NCBI RefSeq assembly: GCF_000620505.1
Contig: NZ_JIBC01000004.1
Location: 372,001 to 436,000, forward strand
Length of the DNA stretch: 64,000 nt
From: Sulfitobacter sp. 20_GPM-1509m
GTDB taxonomy: Bacteria > Pseudomonadota > Alphaproteobacteria > Rhodobacterales > Rhodobacteraceae
Direction: 5' to 3'
A model generated the notes under the pieces. That model did no database searches. It was not told where the DNA came from and saw only the letters and a list, made by a program, of their open reading frames with translations. Shown one piece after another: positions 40,669 to 54,576 of this stretch. Made by a program: the position numbers and the translations under genes. Numbering within the stretch: position 1 is the stretch's first letter; the number at the start of each line of letters is the position of its first letter.

Positions 40669-41649
40669 ATGCCCGTCCCCGCACCGGTTCTTTATCCGCC
40701 GTTCAACATCCTGCGGCTCAGCCACGTGGAATATACCGTCACCGATCTGGCCCGCAGCCGCGCGTTCTGGGTCGACACGCTGGGCCTGCAAATCACCCAC
40801 GAGGAAGACGGCCTGTTGATGCTGCGCGCCATGGAAGAGCGCGGTCACCACTGCATCATCCTGCGCGAGGCCAACAGCGCCCAAGTGCACCGCTTGGGGT
40901 TCAAGCTGTTCGACGAACAGGATCTGGACAAGGCCGAGGCGTGGTTCAAGGACCAGGACCTGCCAACCGCATGGATCGAACGCCCCTTCATGGGCCGCGT
41001 GCTGCAAACCCGTGACCCTTGGGGCGTGCCGCTGGAGTTCTACGCCAAGATGGACCGCCTGCCCAACATCGCGCAGAAATATGCATTGTATCGCGGGGTG
41101 AAACCGCTGCGCATCGACCATTTCAACCTGTTTTCGTCCGACGTGGACGGGGCGGTGGCCTTCTACAACCAGATGGGCTTTCGCGTCACCGAATACACCG
41201 AGGACGCCGAGACGCAAAAGGTCTGGGCCGCTTGGATGCACCGCAAGGGGGGCGTGCACGACATTGCCTTTACCAACGGCAGCGGCCCGCGCCTGCATCA
41301 CACGGCGTTCTGGGTGCCGACGCCGCTGAACATCATCGACCTGCTGGACCTGATGTCCACCACCGGCTGGCGCGACAACATCGAACGCGGCCCCGGACGG
41401 CATGGCATTTCCAACGCCTTTTTCCTCTATATCCTTGACCCCGACGGCCACCGGATCGAAATCTATTGCTCGGACTACCAGACCATCGACCCCGATCACG
41501 AACCGATCCACTGGGACCTGAAAGACCCGTCGCGCCAGACCCTGTGGGGCGCGCCCGCACCGCGCAGCTGGTTTGAAAAGGGATCGACATTTGACGGTAC
41601 AGCCATCGCCGAACCTGCGCTGAAAGCGCAGCCGATCATCGCGCCATAA
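40669..41649 (+). CDS. hpaD: Homoprotocatechuate 2,3-dioxygenase
   Basis: A 326-residue type I extradiol dioxygenase made of two vicinal-oxygen-chelate units. The predicted metal ligands are H151 (RIDHFN), H211 (RLHHTAF) and E264 (RIEIYCSDY). H197 in GVHDIAF and Y254 fit the second-sphere acid/base and tyrosine of known homoprotocatechuate dioxygenases. It inserts both oxygen atoms beside the ring hydroxyls of 3,4-dihydroxyphenylacetate to give the semialdehyde used by HpaE. The metal (Fe or Mn) cannot be told from sequence. Confidence 0.93.
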   Translation: MPVPAPVLYPPFNILRLSHVEYTVTDLARSRAFWVDTLGLQITHEEDGLLMLRAMEERGHHCIILREANSAQVHRLGFKLFDEQDLDKAEAWFKDQDLPTAWIERPFMGRVLQTRDPWGVPLEFYAKMDRLPNIAQKYALYRGVKPLRIDHFNLFSSDVDGAVAFYNQMGFRVTEYTEDAETQKVWAAWMHRKGGVHDIAFTNGSGPRLHHTAFWVPTPLNIIDLLDLMSTTGWRDNIERGPGRHGISNAFFLYILDPDGHRIEIYCSDYQTIDPDHEPIHWDLKDPSRQTLWGAPAPRSWFEKGSTFDGTAIAEPALKAQPIIAP

Positions 41650-41669
41650 CGCAGACAGGACAGACAGAC

Positions 41670-43064
41670 ATGAACTGGGACGATTTCGCCAGCCACGCCA
41701 AGGATGTCGCCGACTGGGGCGCGGATTATCACAAGACCATACGCGACCGTCCGGTGCGCGCGCAAACCGCCCCCGGCGAAGTGTCAGCGCAACTGCCCGA
41801 CAGCCCGCCCGAGGACGGCACCGACATGGCCAACATCATGGCCGATTTTGAAAAGGTCGTGATGCCGGGGATCACCCATTGGCAGCACCCGCGTTTCTTT
41901 GCCTATTTCAACTCGAACGCCGCCCCCGCGTCGGTGCTGGCGGAATTCGTCGCCTCGATCATCGCGCCGCAATGTATGCTGTGGCAGACCTCGCCTGCGG
42001 CGACCGAGATGGAAACCAAGATGCTGGACTGGTTGCGGCAGGGACTGGGCCTACCCACCGGCTATCAGGGTGTTATCCAGGACAGCGCCAGCAGCGCCAC
42101 GCTGGCCGCCGTGCTGACCATGCGCGAACGGGCACTGAACTGGCAGGGCAATGTGCAGGGCCTGTCGGGCCAGCCCGTATTGCGCATTTACTGTTCGGAT
42201 CAGGTGCATACGTCAATTGACCGCGCCATCTGGGTGGCGGGCATCGGGCAGGACAATCTGGTCAAGATCCGCAGCACCGGCGACCTGCGCGGGCTGGACC
42301 CCATCACCTTACAAGACGCGATCACCCGCGACCGCGCCGCAGGCTTTGTCCCCGCAGGTATCATCGCCGCCACCGGTGCCACCGGCATGGGTGCGTGCGA
42401 TGACCTGGAAGCCGTGGCAAACATCGCCAAGGCCGAGAACCTGTTTACCCATCTCGACGCCGCATGGGCGGGCACAGCGATGATCTGCCCCGAGTTCCGC
42501 ACGCTGTGGCAGGGGGCCGAACACTTTGACAGCATCGTGTTCAATCCGCACAAATGGCTGGGGGCGCAATTCGACTGCGCCGCCCATTTCCTGCGCGACC
42601 CCAACGTGCTGCGCCAGACGCTGGCCATCCGGCCCGAATATCTGAAAACCCACGCCCAGGGCGACATCATCGACTATTCCGAATGGTCGATCCCGCTGGG
42701 CCGTCGGTTCCGCGCGCTGAAATTGTGGTTCCTGATGCGCAGCTACGGCATGGAAGGGCTGCGTGGCCGCATCCGCAACCATGTGAAGTGGTCCCAAGCC
42801 TTGTGCGAACGCCTGCGCGCCCTGCCCGAATTCGAGATTGTGACCGACCCGATCCTGTCGCTGTGGACGTTCAAGGTGGCCGGCGCCAGCAATGACGAGA
42901 CACAGGCACTGGTCGAGGCGATCAACTCGGACGGGCGCATTTACCTGACGCAAACCCTTGTGGACGGGGTCAAGGTCATCCGTTTCACCGCAGGGCAATT
43001 CGACTGCGAGGAACGCGACTTTGACACCGCCTTTGACACCATAACCGAGATTGCGAGACGCTGA
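41670..43064 (+). CDS. PLP-dependent aromatic amino acid decarboxylase-family protein
   Basis: A 464-residue group II decarboxylase of the DOPA/tyrosine/tryptophan decarboxylase family. Schiff-base lysine K295 in FNPHKWL, H180 in DQVHTSI that stacks on the cofactor, and D263 in HLDAAWAG are present. It would decarboxylate tyrosine, DOPA or a relative to the amine. It is not a standard member of hpa operons. It sits 20 bp after hpaD and 1 bp overlaps hpaG, so it is part of the operon. It might feed tyramine or dopamine toward the arylacetate, but no amine oxidase is encoded nearby. Confidence 0.88.
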   Translation: MNWDDFASHAKDVADWGADYHKTIRDRPVRAQTAPGEVSAQLPDSPPEDGTDMANIMADFEKVVMPGITHWQHPRFFAYFNSNAAPASVLAEFVASIIAPQCMLWQTSPAATEMETKMLDWLRQGLGLPTGYQGVIQDSASSATLAAVLTMRERALNWQGNVQGLSGQPVLRIYCSDQVHTSIDRAIWVAGIGQDNLVKIRSTGDLRGLDPITLQDAITRDRAAGFVPAGIIAATGATGMGACDDLEAVANIAKAENLFTHLDAAWAGTAMICPEFRTLWQGAEHFDSIVFNPHKWLGAQFDCAAHFLRDPNVLRQTLAIRPEYLKTHAQGDIIDYSEWSIPLGRRFRALKLWFLMRSYGMEGLRGRIRNHVKWSQALCERLRALPEFEIVTDPILSLWTFKVAGASNDETQALVEAINSDGRIYLTQTLVDGVKVIRFTAGQFDCEERDFDTAFDTITEIARR

Positions 43065-43912
43065 TGAATTTCGCCACCTATACCGCCCAAGGCCAGCAGT
43101 TTTACGGCGTGGACACCGGCACGGGGATGATCGCGCTCAGCCCCTATTTTCCCGACTGGCCCACGCTGCGCGACGTGATCGCGGCGGATGCGCTGAACCA
43201 GCTTGCGCTCAAGGCGCAGGACCTGGCCGTCAGCCACACCGATTTCAGCTATGACATTCCGGTGCCCAACCCCGAAAAGATCATCTGCGTCGGCGTGAAC
43301 TTTCCCGACCGCAACGCCGAATACAAGGACGGTCAGGACGCGCCGCCCAACATGTCGCTGTTCCCGCGTTTCCCGCGCAGTTTCACCGGCCACAACGGCA
43401 CAGTGATCCGCCCGCCGGAAACCCCGCAACTGGACTACGAGGGCGAGATTGCCATCGTCATCGGCAAGGGTGGCCGACGCATTGCCGAAGCCGAGGCATA
43501 CAATCACATCTCGGCCCTGACCCTGTGCAACGAGGGCACGCTGCGCGACTGGGTACGCCATGCCAAGTTCAACGTGACCCAAGGCAAGAACTGGGACAAC
43601 TCGGGCGCGATGGGCCCGCATCTGGTGCCCTTCACGTCGGCGGCGCAACTGGATGACGTGGAATTGACGTGTCATGTGAATGGCGAATTGCGCCAGCAGG
43701 ACCGCACCAGCCGGATGCTGTTCCCGATCCGCCGCCAGATCGCCTATATCTCGACCTTCACGACGCTGGTTCCGGGCGACATCATCGTCACCGGCACGCC
43801 CACCGGGGCGGGTGCGCGGTTTGATCCGCCACGGTTCCTTGTGCCCGGCGACACCGTGACCGTGGCCGCCGAAGGCATCGGCACCCTGTCCTGCACGGTG
43901 GCCGACGAATGA
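43064..43912 (+). CDS. hpaG: Fumarylacetoacetate hydrolase-family enzyme (single HpaG-type domain)
   Basis: A 282-residue FAH-fold enzyme. The metal ligands are expected in DYEGEIAIVIGKGG (two acidic residues), with the later GTPTGAG motif closing the active site. In E. coli, HpaG is a fused two-domain protein of about 430 residues that decarboxylates the tricarboxylate and isomerises the product; here only one domain is encoded. Which reaction it catalyses, or whether it does both, cannot be told. It overlaps the decarboxylase stop by 1 base and hpaH by 4 bases. Confidence 0.85.
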   Translation: MNFATYTAQGQQFYGVDTGTGMIALSPYFPDWPTLRDVIAADALNQLALKAQDLAVSHTDFSYDIPVPNPEKIICVGVNFPDRNAEYKDGQDAPPNMSLFPRFPRSFTGHNGTVIRPPETPQLDYEGEIAIVIGKGGRRIAEAEAYNHISALTLCNEGTLRDWVRHAKFNVTQGKNWDNSGAMGPHLVPFTSAAQLDDVELTCHVNGELRQQDRTSRMLFPIRRQIAYISTFTTLVPGDIIVTGTPTGAGARFDPPRFLVPGDTVTVAAEGIGTLSCTVADE

Positions 43913-44706
43913 CCCCCGCACAGCACCAATCCGCCGCCGCCGCGTTGTTGCAAGCCGAGGCCACGGGCCAGCAGACCGGGCTGCTTTCGATTGCCTATCC
44001 CGACATCACCATGGACGACGCCTATGCGATCCAGAAACAGGTGGTCGCGGGCAAGCTGGCGCAGGGCGAGGACGTCATCGGCTGGAAGATCGGCCTGACC
44101 AGCCGCGCCATGCAGCAGGCGCTGAACATCGACATTCCCGACAGCGGCGTGCTGACCTCGTCGATGCGGTTCGACACCGGCGATACGGTCCCTGCGGGCC
44201 GGTTCATCCAGCCGCGCGTCGAGGCCGAGATTGCCTTTGTGATGAAATCGCCCCTTGGCGGAGCGGAGGTGACCCGCGCCGATGTGCTGGCGGCAACCGA
44301 CTATGTGGCGCCGTCGCTTGAAATCCTCGACACCCGCATCCTGCGCGCCGATCCGGCCACAGGGGCCGCGCGCAAGGTGTTTGACACCATCGCTGACAAC
44401 GCCGCCAACGCAGGGATCGTGCTGGGGTCGGAACGGCACGCTGCGGACAGCGATCTGCGTTGGGTGGGTGCGATTGTCACCGCGAACGGAACGGTCGAGG
44501 AAACCGGCCTGGGTGCCGGCGTGCTGAACGATCCGGTCGAAAGCGTGGTCTGGCTGGCACGGCGCATTGCGCAATACGGGCAGCAGATCGAAGCGGGTCA
44601 GGTGATCCTGTCCGGCAGCTTCATCCGCCCCATCGAGTGCCCCGCAGGCACGCGGATCGAGGCAGACTTCGGCAGCTTTGGAAGGGTTGATCTACAGTTT
44701 GGCTAG
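43909..44706 (+). CDS. hpaH: 2-oxo-hept-3-ene-1,7-dioate hydratase
   Basis: A 265-residue hydratase of the HpaH/MhpD family, related to FAH. Family segments are IGWKIGLTSRAMQ, RVEAEIAFVM and the C-terminal GSFIRPIECPAGT. It adds water to 2-oxo-hept-3-ene-1,7-dioate to give the substrate for the aldolase HpaI. No hpaI follows; the operon ends here with a hairpin. It is translationally coupled to the FAH gene (ATGA). Confidence 0.92.
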   Translation: MTPAQHQSAAAALLQAEATGQQTGLLSIAYPDITMDDAYAIQKQVVAGKLAQGEDVIGWKIGLTSRAMQQALNIDIPDSGVLTSSMRFDTGDTVPAGRFIQPRVEAEIAFVMKSPLGGAEVTRADVLAATDYVAPSLEILDTRILRADPATGAARKVFDTIADNAANAGIVLGSERHAADSDLRWVGAIVTANGTVEETGLGAGVLNDPVESVVWLARRIAQYGQQIEAGQVILSGSFIRPIECPAGTRIEADFGSFGRVDLQFG

Positions 44707-45651: not shown

Positions 45652-46419
45652 TTACGCCGCCTTGCCGGGCTGCTTGCCCAGAATGATCATGCTCAGCAGG
45701 TCGTCGTCTGTCACATCCGCCACATCGACCGTGCCCACCAGCTTGCCGTTCTTCATCACCGACGCGCGGTCGCACAGTTCCATCACGTCGTGAATGTCGT
45801 GGCTGATCAGGAAGATCCCGATGCCTTCGGCCTTCAGCTGCGTGATCAATTCGCTGACCATCTGCGTCTCGTGCGGGCCCAGCGCCGCCGTGGGTTCGTC
45901 CATGATCAGGATCTGCGCGTTGAAATAGACCGCGCGCGCAATGGCGACCGACTGGCGTTGACCACCCGACAGGGCGCTGACCGGGTCCTTGAACTTTTGA
46001 AAGTTCGGGTTCAGCCGCGCCATGATCTTGCGCGCTTCGCTTTCCATCGCGTCATCATCGACCAGCCCCAGTGGCGAGGTCAGCTCGCGCCCCAGAAACA
46101 GGTTGCTGGCGGCGTCCAGATTGTCGGCCAGCGCCAGCGTCTGATAGATCGTTTCGATGTTATAGCGCCGCGCGTCGCGCGGGCTGCGGATGTCGGCCCG
46201 TTCGCCGTTCACGTAGATCTCGCCGCTGTCCATCTTGTAGGCACCGGACAGGATCTTGATCAGCGTCGATTTGCCGGCACCGTTGTGGCCCAGCAGGCCG
46301 ACGACTTCGCCGGGGTACAGGTCGACCGACACGTGGTCGACCGCGTGCACGCCGCCAAAGCTGATGCAGATGTCGCGCATATCGATCAGCGGTGTGCCAG
46401 TGTTGGTTTTACTGCTCAT
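45652..46419 (-). CDS. xylG: Sugar ABC transporter ATPase (single-domain, xylose/CUT2 type)
   Basis: A 255-residue ATP-binding subunit. It has Walker A G44-H-N-G-A-G-K50-S-T, signature S151-G-G-Q-R, Walker B with ILIMDEP (D174-E175), and switch H207 in LISHD. Unlike E. coli XylG, which has two fused ATPase domains, there is one domain, so a dimer is needed. It energises XylH. The start overlaps the permease stop by 4 bp. The symbol rests on the xylF-type binding protein and neighbouring xylB and ROK regulator. Confidence 0.88.
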
Positions 46420-47732
46420 TTCGAAGACCTCCGGTAGAGATTGTCCAGATAGACCGCAAGGACCAGAACGCCTCCCACGACGACCTGTTGCACCGCCGCG
46501 TCAAAGCCGATCAGCACCATGCCGGTTTGCAGCGACTGCATGACAAATGCGCCCAGAACCGCGCCATAGATGGTGCCGACCCCACCGCTGAGCGAGGTGC
46601 CCCCGATCACGGCGGCCGCGATCACGTAAAGTTCGTCCAGCGTGCCCAGCGCGTTGGTGGCCGACCCCAGCCGCGCCGAGGCCACCACGGCGGACAGGCC
46701 GGTGAGAAACCCCATGAGGGCGAAAATCTTGACTGTCATCCAGCGGGTATTGATGCCCGCCAATGCCGCCGCTTCGGGGTTGCCGCCGATGGCATAAACA
46801 TAGCGCCCAAAGCGGGTGCGGTTCATCACCACGGTCATCACCACGATCACCGCCAGCAGGATCAGCACCGGAATGGCAAAGCCGTGGCTGATGAACAGAC
46901 CACCTTCGGGGATTTCGATGTCATTCGCCGCCGCATAGCGCCGCACGATCCCGGTAGGCCACGGATAGGCATTGACCAGCAGCACCGCGCCGACCACGGC
47001 ACCCACGCTGATAATACCGATGAACCACTCCGCCCAGATCGGGCGCAGCCGGAAATCAAACCGTTTGCGCCGCGCGCGGCCCATGATGATCATGGCAACC
47101 ACCGCGATGGCGGCGATGATCCCGACGATCCAGCTGCCGGTGGCCCCAACCGCGCCATTCGGCCCGCCCCCCAACAGCTTGAAAGTGCTGTCCAGAGGCG
47201 AGATCGTTTCGCCCCGCGTGATCAGGAACGCAGCACCGCGCCAGACCAGCAGGCCGCCCAGCGTGACGATAAAGGCAGGGATCGACAGATAGGCAATCAG
47301 CCAGCCGTGGATCGCCCCGACCAGCGTGCCCGCGACCATCCCGACGACGCAGGCGATGATCCAGATGCTCCAATGTTCCAGCCCCACCAGCTTTGGCAGA
47401 AACCACACCTGGGTGATGCCCATGATGACGGCGCAGAACCCCAGCACCGACCCGACGCTCAGGTCGATGTGGCGGGTGATGATCACCAGCACCATGCCGC
47501 AGGCCATGATCCCGATGGATGCCGTCTGAACCGACAGGTTCCATAGGTTGCGGGGCGTCAGGAACGCGCCAAATCCGTTGCTGAGTGCGCCATAAACGTG
47601 AAAGCCCACCCAGATCAGGGCCAGCGCACCCAGCATGCCCAGCAGCCGCGTGTCCAGTTCCGTGTCGCGCATGAACCGCTGGACCAGTCCCGGCTGGTTG
47701 CGTGTTGCGCTGTGTTCGCTCATGTCGGTCAT
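46416..47732 (-). CDS. xylH: Sugar ABC transporter permease (XylH type)
   Basis: A 438-residue membrane protein with about ten or more helices. The CUT2 permease segments are [13 protein letters not shown], the [17 protein letters not shown] stretch, and [19 protein letters not shown]. The length is at the long end of the family, as for XylH. Two possible starts are ATG at 47732 and 47723. It lies 121 bp after xylF, with a hairpin in the gap, and is coupled to the ATPase gene (ATGA). Confidence 0.9.
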
Positions 47733-47853: not shown

Positions 47854-48882
47854 TTAGTTGCAGCCTTTGACGCCGTCCATCGCACCCGCACAGACTTTGT
47901 CTTTTTCGATGTGACCTGCGTCGATCACGTCCGAGATGTTGTCCTTTGTGATCGGCGTGGGTGCCAGGAAGATCGCGGTCATTTCCACGCCCTTCTCGCC
48001 ACCGGACCACATTTCGGCACCGTCAACATCGGCCATCGCCGTACCGTCGGCCAGGGCCAGCGCAATCTCGGCCGCTTTCTTGCCCAGCTGACGCGAGTCC
48101 TTCCAGACCGACACGGTTTGGGTGCCACGTGCCACGCGGTTCAGCGCGGCGTGGTCGCCGTCCTGTCCGCCCACCGGCACGTTCAGGCCCTGTGCCTGCA
48201 ATGCCGCAATCGCGCCACCGGCCATGCCGTCGTTCTCGGCCAGAACCGCATCGACGTTGTTGTCGTTGGCGGTCAGGATTTGCTCCATGTTGCGCTGTGC
48301 GTTGTCAGGCTTCCAGCCATCGGTGAACGCCTCGCCCACGATCTTGATCTTGCCTGCGTCCACGTCCGCGCCGATGACTTCCATCATACCTTCCAGCAGG
48401 AACAGCGCGTTGGGGTCACCCTTGTCGCCCTTGATGATGGCAAAGTTGCCCTCGGGCTGCACGGCTGTGACGCTTTGCGCGATGATGCGGCCCACGCCCT
48501 TGTTGTCAAAGGTCAGGTAAAAGGCGCGCGGGTCTTCGATCAGGCGGTCATAACCAACGACCGGAATGCCTTCGTTGTCGGCCTGATCGATGGCGGGGCC
48601 GATGGCGTCCTTGTCCACGGACAGGATGATCAGCGCGGTTGCACCCTGCGCGATCAATGCCTCGACATCGGTCAATTGCTTGGCCGCCGAGGCCTGGGCA
48701 TCTGCCGAAATATACTTGGCGCCCGCGGCTTCGATGGCTTCTTTCATCGCAGCTTCGTCGGTTTTCCAACGCTCTTCCTGAAAGTTCGACCAGCTCACGC
48801 CGACCGTCACATCCTGTGCCCATGCGGCGACTGCCGTCACGGTCATTGTCGCCGCCAAGGCAACCGTTTTGATAAATTTCAT
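47854..48882 (-). CDS. xylF: Xylose ABC transporter periplasmic binding protein
   Basis: A 342-residue type I periplasmic sugar-binding protein with a signal peptide (about 1-22). Sugar-binding landmarks of XylF include WSNFQEERWKTDEAA near the mature start, GYDRLIEDPRAFYLTFDN and DAVLAENDGMAGG, then VGGQDGDHAALNR. It captures D-xylose for XylHG. The spacing and opposite orientation to the ROK gene give a divergent promoter region with an AT-rich inverted repeat. Confidence 0.92.
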   Translation of the reverse strand: MKFIKTVALAATMTVTAVAAWAQDVTVGVSWSNFQEERWKTDEAAMKEAIEAAGAKYISADAQASAAKQLTDVEALIAQGATALIILSVDKDAIGPAIDQADNEGIPVVGYDRLIEDPRAFYLTFDNKGVGRIIAQSVTAVQPEGNFAIIKGDKGDPNALFLLEGMMEVIGADVDAGKIKIVGEAFTDGWKPDNAQRNMEQILTANDNNVDAVLAENDGMAGGAIAALQAQGLNVPVGGQDGDHAALNRVARGTQTVSVWKDSRQLGKKAAEIALALADGTAMADVDGAEMWSGGEKGVEMTAIFLAPTPITKDNISDVIDAGHIEKDKVCAGAMDGVKGCN

Positions 48883-49059: not shown

Positions 49060-50259
49060 ATGGCATTTGGACACCAACGCGAAGACAGCCGCCTGATCCT
49101 GTTGCGTGAAATTTCACAAGAGGGACGCATCCCGCGCATCGACCTGGCAGAGCGCACGGGAATCAGCCGCGCGACGGTGACGACGATCACCGCCGACCTG
49201 TTGCGCGACGGATTGATCGAGGAAATTCCCCGCGAGGATGGCGCTGCCGGCACCCGTGGCCGCCCGCGCGTTGACCTGAAAATTGCCGGAGCGGCGCATC
49301 TGGTGGCGGGTGTCAAAGTGTCGGGGTCGCGGATTTCTCTGGTGCTGATGGATTTCGAAGGCAGCCAGATGGCCGAACACGAGGTGCCGCTGGGCGCAGG
49401 GCGTCACAGCCCGGAGGCGCTTGCCGGCTACATCGGTGACGCGGTGGCTGCACTGGCCGCCAAGATCGGCACAAAGACCGCGCAGATCTCGGGCGTGGGG
49501 GTCGGGCTTGCGGGGACCATCGACGCAGGTGCGGGCGCGGTGCACTGGTCGCCCTCGCTGAACGCGCGCAACGTGGATTTCGCGGCGATGCTGACCGAAC
49601 GCATGGGCGTGCCGACCTATCTGGACAACGACGCGAACCTTGTGGCGATGGCTGAAAAGACATTCGGCCTGGGGCGCGGGCGGTCGGATTTCATCGTGGT
49701 CACCATCGAGGCCGGTGTCGGCATGGGCATCATTCTGGGCGGCGAGATCTACCGCGGCACGCGCGGCTGCGGCGCAGAATTCGGTCACACCAAGGTGCAG
49801 CTTGAAGGGGCGCTCTGCCGCTGCGGGCAGCGCGGCTGTCTCGAGGCCTATGTCGCCGAATACGCCCTGCTGCGCGAGGCGGACACCGCCCTTGGCCCTG
49901 ACACGTCCCTGTCCGGTCAGATCGCGCGGCTGCTCGGCGCGGCCGAGGCGGGCGATCCCACGGCGGCGTCCATCGTGTCGCGTGCGGGGCGGATGTTTGC
50001 GATGGGGCTGGCCAATATCGTCAACATCTTCGACCCCGAGCTGATCATTCTGGCAGGTGAGCAGATGCAGTTCGACTATCTCTATGCCGAGGAAGTCATT
50101 GCGGAAATGCGCAAGTCCATCGTTCAGGTCGACGCCGCACCGCCCGAGGTGGTGATCCACAAGTGGGGCAACCTGATGTGGGCGCGCGGTGCTGCCGCCT
50201 ATGCGCTGGAGTTTGTCCAAGAGCGCGCGGCGCGAGAGGGGCGTGTCGATGCGGCTTAG
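49060..50259 (+). CDS. xylR: ROK-family transcriptional regulator, likely xylose repressor
   Basis: A 399-residue ROK regulator. The winged helix is in residues about 8-65 (IPRIDLAERTGISRATVTTI), and the ROK domain shows GVGVGLAGTID, YLDNDANL, and the sugar/zinc region RGCGAEFGHTKV with C-R-C-G-Q-R-G-C-L-E, which is intact. It should bind xylose (or a related sugar) and release DNA at the xylF promoter. Its stop overlaps the start of the CRTAC1-type gene, so that gene probably is co-transcribed with it. Confidence 0.88.
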   Translation: MAFGHQREDSRLILLREISQEGRIPRIDLAERTGISRATVTTITADLLRDGLIEEIPREDGAAGTRGRPRVDLKIAGAAHLVAGVKVSGSRISLVLMDFEGSQMAEHEVPLGAGRHSPEALAGYIGDAVAALAAKIGTKTAQISGVGVGLAGTIDAGAGAVHWSPSLNARNVDFAAMLTERMGVPTYLDNDANLVAMAEKTFGLGRGRSDFIVVTIEAGVGMGIILGGEIYRGTRGCGAEFGHTKVQLEGALCRCGQRGCLEAYVAEYALLREADTALGPDTSLSGQIARLLGAAEAGDPTAASIVSRAGRMFAMGLANIVNIFDPELIILAGEQMQFDYLYAEEVIAEMRKSIVQVDAAPPEVVIHKWGNLMWARGAAAYALEFVQERAAREGRVDAA

Positions 50260-51760
50260 TGTTCTGTTCCTCCTCTGCGCCAGCGCCGCCCAGGCCGAGC
50301 CGCTGTTCACACCCGTCACGGTTCCCCACCATCAATATGACGGCGGGTGGGAACATTTCGTCGGCGGTGGCCTGACGGCGTTTGATTGCAACGGTGACGG
50401 GCGCACCGATCTGGCAGCAGCGGGCGGCAGCAATCCGGCGGCAGTCTTTATCAACGAAAGCGACGACGAAAGCGACGGCGCCATACGGCTGCGCATGGAG
50501 CCGCTGACGGCCAGCGACACTACGGGGCTTTATGCCCTGGACATCAACAACGACAGCCATCTTGACCTGGTGATGCTGCGCGTTGGTCCCGACCAGATAT
50601 GGCTGGGCGACGGAGCCTGCGGTTTTGCCCCCACGGACATGATCGACTTTCCCGACAAATGGACCACCGCCTTTTCCGCAACATGGGAGCAGGGTCAGGA
50701 CAGACCCACGCTGGCGATGGGCCATTACGTCGACCGCAGCAATCCCGACGGCCCGTTTCAGGCCTGCGACACCAACAGCCTGTGGCGGCCCGAGGGCGAC
50801 GGTTGGGAACAGACCGTGCTTGCCCCCGGCTTTTGCCCGCTCTCCGCCCTCTTCACCGACTGGTCGCGCAGCGGGCATGCCGACCTGCGGCTGTCAAACG
50901 ACCGGCACTATTATGTCACCGGCGGGGCGGAACAGCTTTGGAAGATGTCGCCCGAGCCGCGCCTCTATACCGAAGCCGACGGCTGGGGCGAACATCACAT
51001 CTGGGGCATGGGCATTGCCACCCGCGATCTGGACCGCGATGGCCGCGACGAGGTGTTCCTCAGCTCGATGGGCGACCAGCGCCTGCAACGGCCCACCGGC
51101 GACGGCCCGGGCTATGTGGATGTGCCCTTTGACGTCGGGTCGACGGCGCACCGACCCTATACGGGTGGCGACGGGCGCCCCTCGACCGGTTGGCACATCG
51201 CATTCGGTGATGTGCAGAACGACGGCCGTGACGATGCCTTTATCGCCAAGGGCAACGTGCAGCAGATGCCGGGGATGGCCATGGATGACCCCAACAACCT
51301 GTTGATCGCGCAGCCCGATGGCACGTTCATCGAGGCCGGCCTGAGCGCAGGCGTCGCATCGCTGCATCGCGGGCGTGGGGCGGCGCTGGTTGATCTGGAC
51401 AACGACGGGCTGCTGGATCTGGCCGTGGTCAACCGCCGCGCCCCGATGGAAGTCTGGCACAACACCAGCACCGACACCGGCCACTGGCTGTCGCTGGACC
51501 TGAACCAGCCCGACACCAACACCCGTGCCATCGGCGCGTGGATCGAGGTGGACGACGGCACGTCGGTGCAATCGCGCGAACTGGTGGTGGGTGGCGGCCA
51601 CGCGGGCGGATCGGATGCGCCGCAGCACTTCGGGCTGGGCGATGCCACGACGGTGCAGCTGCGTGTGCTGTGGCCCAACGCGCCTGCATCGGGCTGGACC
51701 ACGGTGCAGACCAACCAACGCTATCGCCTGCGCCCCGGTGCCGCGCCCGAAGCCTACTGA
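50249..51760 (+). CDS. Secreted CRTAC1-type FG-GAP/ASPIC-UnbV protein
   Basis: A 503-residue secreted protein with a short signal peptide (about 1-16). It contains at least five calcium-binding beta-propeller repeats of DxNxDGxxDL type: DCNGDGRTDL (46-55), DINNDSHLDL, DLDRDGRDEV, DVQNDGRDDA and DLDNDGLLDL. The C-terminal part (WLSLDLNQPDTNTRAIGAW, then SRELVVGGGHAGG and HFGLG) is an ASPIC/UnbV domain. The function is unknown; such proteins are extracellular. The start could be ATG at 50249 or GTG at 50243, both inside xylR. The end overlaps the convergent di-haem gene by 7 bp. Confidence 0.82.
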   Translation: MRLSVLFLLCASAAQAEPLFTPVTVPHHQYDGGWEHFVGGGLTAFDCNGDGRTDLAAAGGSNPAAVFINESDDESDGAIRLRMEPLTASDTTGLYALDINNDSHLDLVMLRVGPDQIWLGDGACGFAPTDMIDFPDKWTTAFSATWEQGQDRPTLAMGHYVDRSNPDGPFQACDTNSLWRPEGDGWEQTVLAPGFCPLSALFTDWSRSGHADLRLSNDRHYYVTGGAEQLWKMSPEPRLYTEADGWGEHHIWGMGIATRDLDRDGRDEVFLSSMGDQRLQRPTGDGPGYVDVPFDVGSTAHRPYTGGDGRPSTGWHIAFGDVQNDGRDDAFIAKGNVQQMPGMAMDDPNNLLIAQPDGTFIEAGLSAGVASLHRGRGAALVDLDNDGLLDLAVVNRRAPMEVWHNTSTDTGHWLSLDLNQPDTNTRAIGAWIEVDDGTSVQSRELVVGGGHAGGSDAPQHFGLGDATTVQLRVLWPNAPASGWTTVQTNQRYRLRPGAAPEAY

Positions 51761-53073
51761 TCCACCGGCAGGCCGCTGGGCACCGTCGCGGGCACGCCCA
51801 GACGTCCGTCAAGGCTGTCCTGATCGGTCAGGGCCCCCAGAAAGGCCATGATCGCCTGCACCTGCCCGTTGCTCAGCGCGCTTGGGGGCAGCTCGTTCGC
51901 CGCCGCAATGCGGGCCACTTCGGCCGGGTCATCCATCACGGTGGTATCCACCAACCCCGCCAGGTCCGGCAGCAGCGCCTGCGCCGGATCATATTCGGTC
52001 AGGTGTTTGACGGGGTTCAGGTGATGGCGCACCACATCCTCAAGCCGCGCATAGGCGCCCGCATGGCCATAGGGCGCCGTGTGCACGACATTGCGCAGCG
52101 ACGGCGTGCGGAACCGGAACGCATCCGCAGGATCGCCCGTCACCAGCATCCGCCCCTCGTCCGCCGCCCCGCTTTCAAAGATCGCGCGTTTGCCCGGCCC
52201 GATCTGGGGCATGGCGATCGCGTGGAAATCATGGTCGGTCTGGAACAGGCCGGAATGGCAATTGGCGCAACCGGCCTTGCCATAAAACAGGTCGCGCCCG
52301 AATGTCTGGTCTTGCGTCAGCTCGGCCTCGCCCCGCAGCGACCTGTCAAAAAGGCTGTCCGTCGACCGCCATTCAAAGGCGACAAAGGCCGCGATTGCAT
52401 CGGAAATATCGGTGAAATGCACCGGCTTTGCGCCGATGACCTCGTCAAACCGCGCGCGGTATTCGGGAACACCCGCCACCCGCTGCGCCAGGATGTCCCA
52501 GGCCCCGCCCGGTCCGGTCATCAGCCCCTGACGCACGGCCCTGGACACATCGCTTTCGCCCAGATGCCCGGCCATCTCGTCGGCAGACAGCACGGGGAAC
52601 ATGGTCTGCGCGCTCAGCAGGCTGGCAAAGCCCTGCTCCATCTCGGCCCCCAAGGGCGTGCGAATACCGCCCGCCCGGGTCTCGTCCAGTTCCAGCCGGC
52701 CGTCATGAAAGAACGACCGGTATTCCAGCGCACCGACGTTGAACAGCGCGGGCGCATTGCGTGGAATGCGGTGGGTGGGCAGGTTCGTCGGATCAACCAC
52801 CCGCGCAGGCCCCAACCCATGGCCCCCGTCGCCCAGTCCCAGCGACAGCCCGTCGCCCGTGGCAAGCCGCGGATGGTGGCAGGTGGCACAGCTGACGGTC
52901 TGGCCCCCCGACAGGATGGGATCGTAAAACAACAACCGCCCCAGTTCGACCTGCGGCATGTCCACCACGGGAAACTCTGCGTCGGGTGCAGGCAGGTCAC
53001 CGGCCAGCGCGGCGCCCACCCAGACGGCCAGCGCCGCGAGACTGCCAGTGATCGTGAAAAACCTGCATCCCAT
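51754..53073 (-). CDS. Periplasmic di-haem cytochrome c peroxidase/MauG-like protein
   Basis: A 439-residue secreted protein with a signal peptide (about 1-24). Two c-type haem motifs are seen: C62-A-T-C65-H66 and C269-A-N-C272-H273. The first is followed by HPRLATGDG, and RTPSLRNV with TAPYGHAGAY lies in the C-terminal domain, as in the bacterial CCP/MauG family. It may detoxify peroxide or, like MauG and MbnH, modify a partner protein. Which cannot be told without the distal ligands in an alignment. It is 14 bp downstream of the xylB stop and may share its transcript, yet it has no obvious link to xylose. Confidence 0.88.
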   Translation of the reverse strand: MGCRFFTITGSLAALAVWVGAALAGDLPAPDAEFPVVDMPQVELGRLLFYDPILSGGQTVSCATCHHPRLATGDGLSLGLGDGGHGLGPARVVDPTNLPTHRIPRNAPALFNVGALEYRSFFHDGRLELDETRAGGIRTPLGAEMEQGFASLLSAQTMFPVLSADEMAGHLGESDVSRAVRQGLMTGPGGAWDILAQRVAGVPEYRARFDEVIGAKPVHFTDISDAIAAFVAFEWRSTDSLFDRSLRGEAELTQDQTFGRDLFYGKAGCANCHSGLFQTDHDFHAIAMPQIGPGKRAIFESGAADEGRMLVTGDPADAFRFRTPSLRNVVHTAPYGHAGAYARLEDVVRHHLNPVKHLTEYDPAQALLPDLAGLVDTTVMDDPAEVARIAAANELPPSALSNGQVQAIMAFLGALTDQDSLDGRLGVPATVPSGLPVDQ

Positions 53074-53087
53074 GATCGTTCACCCCG

Positions 53088-54539
53088 TCACTGCAATGCT
53101 TTCAAACCGGCAAAGGCTGCACGATAAGCCTGATGCGCCTCGGCAAATGCGTCAACCAGCGATGCGTCCGGTGTGACCGTCCGCGCGATTTCGGGCTTGG
53201 TCATCACCGCCACCGGATCGGCGCCAGTCACACCGCATATCGCCAGTCGCGCAGCCCCCAGGGCCGCCCCAAACTCACCCCGCGCGGGGATCTCAAGCGG
53301 CAAGTTCAGCGTATTGGCCAGCATCTGCACCCAGTGGCTGGATGCGGCACCGCCGCCAATCGCCAGCAGGCTTTGCGGATCGGCCCCCGTTGCGCGCAGT
53401 GCCATCAAACTGTCGGCCTGGGCAAAGCTCACACCTTCCAGCAGGGCGCGGGTCAGGTCCGGCACGTCGTGGGCGATGTCCAAGCCGCTGAAACCACCCC
53501 GCACCTGCGCGTCGTTGTGCGGTGTGCGCTCGCCAGACAGGTAGGGATAGAACCGCAAGCTGCCCGGTGCGCGCACGTCATCGCCAAGCGCCGTCGTCAG
53601 CGCCGCGGGCCCCTGCCCCGTGATCCGCACCAGCCAGTTCAGGCTGTCGGTACAGGCCAGCGTCACCCCCATCTGATACCACCGTCCCGGCACCGCATGA
53701 CAGAAGGTGTGCACGGCGCTGGCCGCATCGGGGGCAAACCCGCCCCGCGCGGTCAGCACAACGCCCGAGGTGCCCAGCGACACAAAACCCGCACCTTCGT
53801 GCAGCGCGCCGACACCGCAAGCCGCCGCCGCGTTGTCAGCCGCACCCGCAATCACCTGAACCCCGCGCGGCAGGCCCAGCTCATCGGCCAGCGCATCGCG
53901 CAGCGGACCGATCACGCCGCTGCCCTCATGCAGTGCGGGCATCTGGTCGCGGCGCATCCCGCCGGCCTGCAGCAATCTGTCGGACCAATCGCGCGCGCCC
54001 ACGTCCAGCCAGGCGGTGCCGGCCGCATCGGACATTTCGCTGGCGCAGGTGCCGGTCATCCAAAGGCTGACGTAATCCTTGGGCAAGACAACCTTGGCGA
54101 CGCGGGCAAACACATCCGGCTCGTGTGCGGCCACCCATGCCAGTTTGGGCGCGGTAAAGCCGGGAAAGACGATATTACCGCTGATCTCGCGCACGTCGTC
54201 GGCGGCATCCAGCACCGCCGCTTCGGCATGGCTGCGCGTGTCGTTCCACAGGATGCAAGGCCGCAGCACCTCGCCCGCATCGTCCAGCAGAACCGCCCCG
54301 TGCATATGCCCCGCCACGGCGACGCCCCGCACAGCGGCATATTCCGCCGGATGCGCCGCCTTCAACGCGGCCAGCGCCGTCTGGCATCCCGCCACCCACG
54401 TCGCCGGATCCTGTTCGCTCCAGCCCGGCGCGGGATGCGCCGCCTGATAATGCGCCTCTTGCGCGCCCAATGGCGCACCGCCCTCGTCCACCAAAAGCGC
54501 GCGCACGCCCGACGTGCCCAGATCCAGACCGATATACAT
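53088..54539 (-). CDS. xylB: Xylulokinase
   Basis: A 483-residue FGGY kinase. It has the N-terminal GLDLGTSGVRALLVD, the xylulose-type GHMHGAVLLD segment with catalytic-region residues, the FGGY signature region around SGERTPHNDA, and the ATP-binding GGGAASSHWVQ. It converts D-xylulose to xylulose 5-phosphate. The ATG at 54539 follows a GGGAG site; an upstream in-frame codon at 54560 adds no family sequence. No xylose isomerase gene is visible in the window, so the isomerase must lie elsewhere or another entry route exists. Confidence 0.9.
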   Translation of the reverse strand: MYIGLDLGTSGVRALLVDEGGAPLGAQEAHYQAAHPAPGWSEQDPATWVAGCQTALAALKAAHPAEYAAVRGVAVAGHMHGAVLLDDAGEVLRPCILWNDTRSHAEAAVLDAADDVREISGNIVFPGFTAPKLAWVAAHEPDVFARVAKVVLPKDYVSLWMTGTCASEMSDAAGTAWLDVGARDWSDRLLQAGGMRRDQMPALHEGSGVIGPLRDALADELGLPRGVQVIAGAADNAAAACGVGALHEGAGFVSLGTSGVVLTARGGFAPDAASAVHTFCHAVPGRWYQMGVTLACTDSLNWLVRITGQGPAALTTALGDDVRAPGSLRFYPYLSGERTPHNDAQVRGGFSGLDIAHDVPDLTRALLEGVSFAQADSLMALRATGADPQSLLAIGGGAASSHWVQMLANTLNLPLEIPARGEFGAALGAARLAICGVTGADPVAVMTKPEIARTVTPDASLVDAFAEAHQAYRAAFAGLKALQ

Positions 54540-54576
54540 AGCAAATCTCCCTTGCCGCATCCTGACCCCGACTAAA

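Follow-up and report, generated by a model that had tools for sequence, protein, structure and literature searches.

The window analysed in this work is a stretch of 64,000 nucleotides from Sulfitobacter sp. 20_GPM-1509m (NCBI RefSeq assembly GCF_000620505.1, contig NZ_JIBC01000004.1, positions 372,001 to 436,000 of the forward strand). Two convergent genes in the xylose (xyl) locus of this window were studied, where one encodes a CRTAC1-type propeller protein and the other encodes a di-haem protein of the CCP_MauG superfamily. Both proteins are tentatively proposed to form a dedicated redox module of two exported proteins within the xylose regulon in which the di-haem enzyme works with the propeller as its partner, a reading to which we give slightly less than an even chance. 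The features of both genes are listed below (aa, amino acids).

50249 (ATG) to 51760 (TGA), forward strand: propeller gene, 503 aa, CRTAC1-type FG-GAP protein with a UnbV/ASPIC domain
51527 to 51724, forward strand: UnbV_ASPIC domain (Pfam) of the propeller, aa 427-492, containing the conserved GGGH (G448-H451)
53073 (ATG) to 51754 (TAG), reverse strand: di-haem gene, 439 aa, CCP_MauG superfamily, predicted exported
51754 to 51760, both strands: tail-to-tail overlap of the coding sequences, 7 bp common to the propeller and di-haem reading frames
52876 to 52890, reverse strand: first haem motif CATCH of the di-haem protein, aa 62-66
52255 to 52269, reverse strand: second haem motif CANCH of the di-haem protein, aa 269-273
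52021 to 52023, reverse strand: His351, axial ligand position of the second haem by alignment (Met in bacterial cytochrome c peroxidase, bCcP; Tyr in MbnH)
52705 to 52707, reverse strand: His123, position of the inter-haem Trp of bCcP and MauG, by alignment to 1eb7 and same-family relatives

The initial annotation described both proteins as exported, with 3' ends that overlap by 7 bp, and placed their genes between xylR and xylB. This description was confirmed from the open reading frames and from the hydrophobic N-terminal leaders of both proteins, which end in AQA or ALA (judged by eye).

The distribution of both genes was surveyed in 248 genomes of the same family (thresholds of 1e-40 for the di-haem protein and 1e-20 for the propeller, where some queries were scored on only six or seven candidates in each genome). 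A di-haem match was identified in at least 149 of the 248 genomes and a propeller in 129, which makes the family a dense, testable case for the role of bacterial CRTAC1/UnbV proteins. The adjacency and co-occurrence counts of the di-haem gene rest on 150 rows among the matches listed, and more matches exist. The best 102 of these rows (462 bits or more, the close di-haem genes) include 88 that are located within 5 kb of a propeller gene and 86 that are convergent on it. Among the matches listed, 99 genomes have both the propeller and a close di-haem gene, three have only the close di-haem gene, 30 have only the propeller, and 116 have neither (Fisher p about 1e-37, kinship not removed). This table is not a blind test because the 462-bit line was drawn after seeing where the adjacency stops. 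The co-occurrence of the two genes, on which the initial annotation had made its pairing depend, is strong by these counts, and the pair is widespread, as it is found among the xylose genes of many marine Rhodobacterales.

A neighbourhood that is local or due to chance was ruled out by the co-occurrence and adjacency in the 248 genomes. The propeller is not tracked by the whole di-haem clade: lower-scoring matches were listed for 47 genomes, and a propeller is present in 23 of these and absent from 24 (no association, p 0.75). Eleven genomes hold both genes that were not seen within 5 kb of each other, and in nine of them the genes are on different contigs so that their true distance is hidden. 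The propeller is rare beyond the family (8 of 240 genomes of the class at 1e-40, and three of those eight are in the family). A general link between UnbV_ASPIC proteins and haem enzymes in other Pseudomonadota was considered and rejected: the domain was found in 11 of 120 genomes, and a two-haem frame was found only in the same-family L256 among the eight loci that were read (loci are denoted by L numbers). A single-CXXCH frame, one per locus, was found in L250 and L253 from that search.

Plasmid pPGA1_262 of the laboratory strain Phaeobacter inhibens DSM 17395 (L257) also carries the pair (propeller PGA1_RS18335, di-haem PGA1_RS18330) together with a portion of the xyl locus, and Phaeobacter accounts for 58 of the 67 plasmid records in which a di-haem match was found. 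Barcoded-transposon fitness data are available for DSM 17395. The Phaeobacter genes are annotated as 'cytochrome c peroxidase' and 'CRTAC1 family protein'. The same arrangement was seen in records titled Cohaesibacteraceae (L163, a metagenome-assembled genome), Maritalea mediterranea (L167), and Granulosicoccaceae (L172, also metagenome-assembled), which suggests either transfer outside Rhodobacterales or binning errors in the metagenome-assembled genomes.

Gene order was compared in the named loci, which are the best 80 of at least 564 by likeness to the window propeller and are biased to the window's kind (the first two are from Pseudosulfitobacter, 93 and 83%). The genes in the fetched loci were called by a simple codon-usage script, where some genes were missed or mis-stranded and were partly mended by profile searches. 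Among the best 80 loci, the di-haem gene is present in 72, xyl genes are present in the fetched flanks of 79, and a ROK gene is located upstream of the propeller on the same strand in 71. The di-haem gene is located at most 93 bp downstream of an epimerase gene (26 loci), xylA (15), or xylB (8) in 49 of the 50 loci with such a gene in hand; the distances were taken from open reading frames, the starts of which may be set too far upstream. Those upstream genes overlap the di-haem gene by 4 bp in 23 loci. In the 70 named loci where the di-haem gene is convergent, the stop-to-stop gap of the pair has a median of 1.5 bp, and the two genes overlap in 29. The 7-bp overlap was rejected as a special feature, as tail-to-tail packing is usual for the pair. 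Judged by this spacing, the pair appears to close two convergent strings of xyl genes, xylR-propeller and xylB/xylA/epimerase-di-haem, each of which may be co-transcribed. The genes around the pair in the window are as follows.

49060 to 50259, forward strand: ROK-family regulator, named xylR from its position; its last 11 bp overlap the start of the propeller gene
53088 to 54560, reverse strand: xylB, xylulokinase (TIGR01312, 525 bits against a cut-off of 380), ending 14 bp before the di-haem start
47854 to 48882, reverse strand: xylF, D-xylose substrate-binding protein (389.9 against a model cut-off of 389.55, barely over)
46416 to 47732, reverse strand: sugar ABC permease (xylH by position; the best model is under its cut-off)

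No ROK model scored over its cut-off on the window regulator, and the name xylR is given by position. A xylose isomerase match was identified on another contig of the source genome (72% to that of a relative).

The co-evolution of the pair was measured by partial distance correlation. The pair ranked second among five proteins in 77 loci (0.52), where the correlations were 0.75 for xylF-xylH, 0.37 for di-haem-xylR, and 0.34 for propeller-xylR. When xylB and xylA were included (seven proteins, 48 loci), the pair had a correlation of 0.45 and ranked third, after xylF-xylH (0.59) and xylR-xylB (0.49).

Most propellers without a close di-haem enzyme adjoin a gene of a different enzyme. For 41 propeller rows, no di-haem row is located within 5 kb, and the DNA was read around 38 of them (the other three are short fragments). 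A gene resembling vanadium haloperoxidase (VHPO) and PAP2 proteins is located directly upstream of the propeller, in tandem, in 17 of the 38, and a DHOR-type di-haem gene is located directly upstream in two (L225 and L231). The remaining 19 have no such neighbour; among these, ten come from genomes with a close di-haem gene at another site, and one is truncated by the end of its contig. A third DHOR-linked propeller was identified in L207, from another family of the same class. Counted by genomes, 20 of the 30 with only the propeller have another enzyme gene adjoining it (17 VHPO, two DHOR, and one di-haem just under the 462-bit line). The close di-haem gene is present in none of the 17 VHPO genomes and in 99 of the 112 other propeller genomes. 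A search of 246 genomes for the VHPO type found it in 18, where it is beside a propeller in 16 and at a contig start with no propeller found in two. Gene order, co-evolution, and this exchange of partners link CRTAC1/UnbV proteins to peroxidase-like enzymes.

The propeller tree was built by a quick method from 135 rows, including 16 of the 17 VHPO-linked rows (one was too short) and with one DHOR row labelled (the other two were identified later). The VHPO rows essentially form one group (two changes), and the three DHOR-linked rows are inside the same 26-row group. Many independent partner exchanges were therefore rejected, and one or few events are indicated. The K-x6-RP, PSGH, and SR-x5-H residues, which we take to serve as the VHPO/PAP2 active site, are invariant in all ten aligned proteins. 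These active-site residues do not separate haloperoxidase from phosphatase; the three proteins that were scanned are over the cut-off for PAP2 and under the cut-off for VCPO_2nd. The VHPO tandem loci are L062-L071, L219, L220, L222, L223, L224, L229, and L230. L227 (2820-3656) and L228 (3503-4474) have a short-chain-dehydrogenase-like gene (by eye) between the propeller and xylR, and no recognised enzyme partner.

The di-haem protein is a member of the CCP_MauG superfamily (PF03150, 116.4 bits against a cut-off of 25.6) with two CXXCH motifs. Its structural model has a mean predicted local distance difference test (pLDDT) score of 85 and matches 1iqc with a Z score of 28.7 and MbnH 6e1c with 28.6, and Z scores against several peroxidase, MbnH, and MauG structures are 27 to 29. 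Its scores are under the cut-offs of the MauG model TIGR03791 (94.4 against 443.85), the MbnH model TIGR04039 (121.6 against 362.85), the hydrazine synthase gamma model NF052341 (19.7 against 625), and TIGR03981, the MauG-like protein associated with the His-Xaa-Ser system (about 260 bits, 258.7-260.4, against 340), which is nevertheless the best-scoring named family.

The haem sites were compared in 50 rows that consist of 43 close relatives and seven more distant relatives (class B). The ligand positions were taken from alignment to solved MbnH and bCcP (1eb7) and to same-family proteins of Met type (L104) and Tyr type (L102 and L103), rather than to MauG itself. The axial ligand position of the second haem (351) is His in all 50 rows, compared with Met in bCcP and Tyr in MbnH. 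The place of the inter-haem Trp (123) is His in 48 rows, Tyr in one, and Asn in one. At aa 82, the site of the first-haem distal His in peroxidases, Asp is present in 25 rows, Glu in 24, Gln in one, and His in none. The residue two before the second CXXCH, which we take to be the place of MauG W199, is Ala in 46 rows, Gly in three, and Ile in one. The initial annotation had set a MauG-like Tyr ligand against the Met ligand of ordinary peroxidases. Neither the bCcP signature (a distal His at the first haem together with a Met ligand at the second) nor the Tyr ligand and inter-haem Trp of MauG and MbnH was found in the 50 rows, and the His at both places is an outcome that had not been foreseen. 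Judged from the aligned residues, this set is of neither the peroxidase type nor the MauG/MbnH type.

The MauG Y294H variant, the structure of which is 3orv, is reportedly unable to make tryptophan tryptophylquinone (TTQ), so the natural His at the ligand place speaks against MauG-type chemistry. The window enzyme resembles MauG (partner preMADH) and MbnH (partner MbnP) in its fold, in the lack of a distal His on the first haem, and in having its gene beside that of one exported partner. It differs from them in its axial His instead of Tyr, in the His at the inter-haem Trp place, in scores far under the cut-offs, in its CRTAC1 propeller partner, and in its xyl setting. It resembles bCcP in fold and in the two CXXCH motifs, and differs in the missing distal His, the His instead of Met on the second haem, and the His instead of the inter-haem Trp.

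One member of TIGR03981 over the cut-off (L260 / L266) was found in 289 genomes; it is 35% identical to the di-haem protein, with His at position 351 and Trp at position 123. The His at the ligand place is thus common to both, whereas the window protein is under the cut-off and lacks the inter-haem Trp kept by that member. The bis-His feature may be older than the link to xylose. The named neighbours of the window gene are xyl genes.

The propeller has both FG-GAP_3 (70 bits) and UnbV_ASPIC (53 bits) over the Pfam cut-offs. The best solved match of its AlphaFold model (mean pLDDT 91) is murine CRTAC1 9etn (Z score 37.1, 433 residues, 17% identity). The propeller is assigned to the CRTAC1/UnbV_ASPIC proteins by its FG-GAP propeller, its UnbV_ASPIC domain, and its CRTAC1 fold, and it shares the whole fold of propeller and UnbV/ASPIC domain with that family; it differs in being bacterial and in the co-location of its gene with that of an oxidoreductase. 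We know of no established function of bacterial CRTAC1 members. H451 of the GGGH is invariant in all 55 aligned rows. Nine aromatic residues (W34, W138, W205, W231, W246, W252, W315, Y160, and Y221) are invariant across 42 propellers of the di-haem group and 10 VHPO-linked propellers. Seven positions separate the 42 rows from the 10 rows (at least 85% in each), including H220 to E, F170 to W, and H36 to Y. The structural matches also include fungal aldos-2-ulose dehydratase (Z score 24.5), an enzyme whose substrates are oxidised sugars.

The seven class-B relatives are 42 to 51% identical to the di-haem protein, with His351 in seven of seven and His123 in six of seven. No propeller was found within the 14 kb read at any of their seven loci. 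Their settings are mostly operons of TRAP transporters with sugar kinase, aldolase, isomerase, epimerase, and aldehyde dehydrogenase genes (names partly by eye), which connects the enzyme with the use of sugars and not solely with the propeller. The sugar operon is fullest in L095 and L096, L098 is beside a GH1-like gene, and L101 has no such setting. The di-haem genes of L095, L096, L097, L099, and L100, which have the same His pattern (one with Asn for His123), adjoin TRAP-transporter genes. L095 to L097 also have a kinase and a sulfoquinovose-isomerase-related isomerase (260 bits against a cut-off of 700), and may encode a sulfosugar pathway that has a di-haem enzyme of its own.

In the dedicated redox module that is tentatively favoured here, the di-haem enzyme and its partner, the propeller, would act together in the periplasm, the location predicted for the enzyme from its leader and c-type haem motifs. 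Electrons would be passed by a first haem that is five-coordinate and a second that is bis-His, and the propeller would bind a substrate that is tied to xylose uptake. Joint action on a small, sugar-derived substrate is considered somewhat more probable than a change to the propeller because di-haem relatives are located in propeller-free sugar operons and the ligands are not of the MauG kind. Several points weigh against this joint action. The support is genomic and from structural models, and the substrate is putative. No two-haem gene was called in eight of the 80 named loci, and 8 to 10 of the 129 propeller genomes show none of the three partner kinds (two of the ten could not be judged). 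The pair falls to third place in the distance correlation when xylB and xylA are added, and part of the co-evolution signal is explained by the inheritance of one locus together. The Z score of aldos-2-ulose dehydratase is not above that of many unrelated propellers. Xyl genes are present in just 2 of the 17 VHPO-linked stretches that were read (several are short contigs), so xylose cannot be the sole substrate.

The joint redox action of both proteins is ranked before three other explanations. The next in rank, which we consider rather unlikely, is that the di-haem enzyme oxidises conserved aromatics of the propeller to a cross-link or a protein-derived cofactor, and that DHOR or VHPO does the same job in other clades. 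It agrees with the dedicated co-occurrence of the pair, with a propeller that stays constant while the adjoining enzyme changes in kind, with the nine aromatics that are invariant in both propeller groups, and with TIGR03981 as the best-scoring named family, whose over-cut-off member also has the ligand-place His. The His in place of the Tyr ligand and of the inter-haem Trp, the Ala (46 of 50) at what we presume to be the W199 place, the reported inactivity of MauG Y294H in TTQ synthesis, and the relatives in sugar operons without a propeller nearby stand against it, and the VHPO/PAP2 residues fit a haloperoxidase or a phosphatase alike. The MauG-type enzyme-substrate pair of the initial annotation is thus supported as a pair of dedicated partners (co-occurrence and co-evolution), while the tryptophan modification is weakened by the His ligands, the propeller-free relatives, and the VHPO neighbours; MauG-type tryptophan chemistry appears less likely on these alignments, though some modification may take place. 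A wider form of this idea, in which CRTAC1-type propellers are the constant substrate of oxidative activation by three kinds of enzyme (bis-His di-haem enzymes of the MauG superfamily, DHOR di-haem enzymes, and vanadium haloperoxidases) that yields a periplasmic, sugar-active propeller with a protein-derived redox centre, is distinctly improbable. If true, it would be a new kind of quinoprotein-like sugar enzyme within the xylose regulon. Ordinary periplasmic peroxide defence induced with xylose use, with the propeller as a separate binding or adhesive protein that is a neighbour only through the shared xyl regulon, ranks third and is improbable. The CCP_MauG fold and the match to classical peroxidases, the opposite strands of the two genes, and the Phaeobacter annotations are in its favour. 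It is difficult to reconcile with the absence of the bCcP ligand features that were tested, the co-evolution of the pair, the 11 genomes that keep both genes not seen within 5 kb (nine with the distance hidden by contigs), and the other enzyme gene that adjoins the propeller in 20 of the 30 genomes without a close di-haem gene.

The fourth explanation is a stable complex of di-haem protein and propeller in the manner of hydrazine synthase (HZS) gamma and beta, with electrons passing via the bis-His haem, which we consider very improbable. In HZS gamma, as described in PMC12758564 and PMC12607021, the second haem is bis-His and His144 occupies the position of the Trp, so that it resembles the window enzyme in both residues and in having a propeller partner. 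PMC12758564 also describes HZS-like clusters of other species in which a CRTAC1 family gene is located by homologues of HZS alpha and beta-gamma, which on that account is an independent case of a CRTAC1 gene beside a di-haem enzyme. The HZS beta propeller is likened there to YVTN and PQQ domains, not to CRTAC1. The sequence match to HZS gamma is weak (19.7 against 625), its structural Z score of 14.8 is under those of the peroxidases, and genes on opposite strands are unusual for a complex of fixed ratio. The MauG superfamily gains a clade with two altered haem-site residues, which in the parts of the literature examined are described only for HZS gamma. BthA of Burkholderia (PMC6405878) likewise belongs to the CCP_MauG superfamily, lacks the inter-haem Trp, and is encoded next to a conserved gene of unknown function; it has a Tyr-His second haem and Ser at the Trp place, compared with His at both places here, and its neighbour is annotated as a phosphatase.

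The propeller/di-haem pair was not described in the open-licence literature that was searched. Among the papers listed from it, none joins MauG with UnbV or CRTAC1 with haloperoxidase; ASPIC, UnbV, and FG-GAP come together only on other matters; FG-GAP, cytochrome c peroxidase, and xylose come together only for a fungus; and 'CRTAC1 family protein' is used only in anammox work. The excerpts of PMC9007349 contain no mention of the pair genes.

Upstream of the xyl locus in the window, four open reading frames (40669-44706) resemble an aromatic meta-cleavage cluster of the homoprotocatechuate type, as judged by eye.

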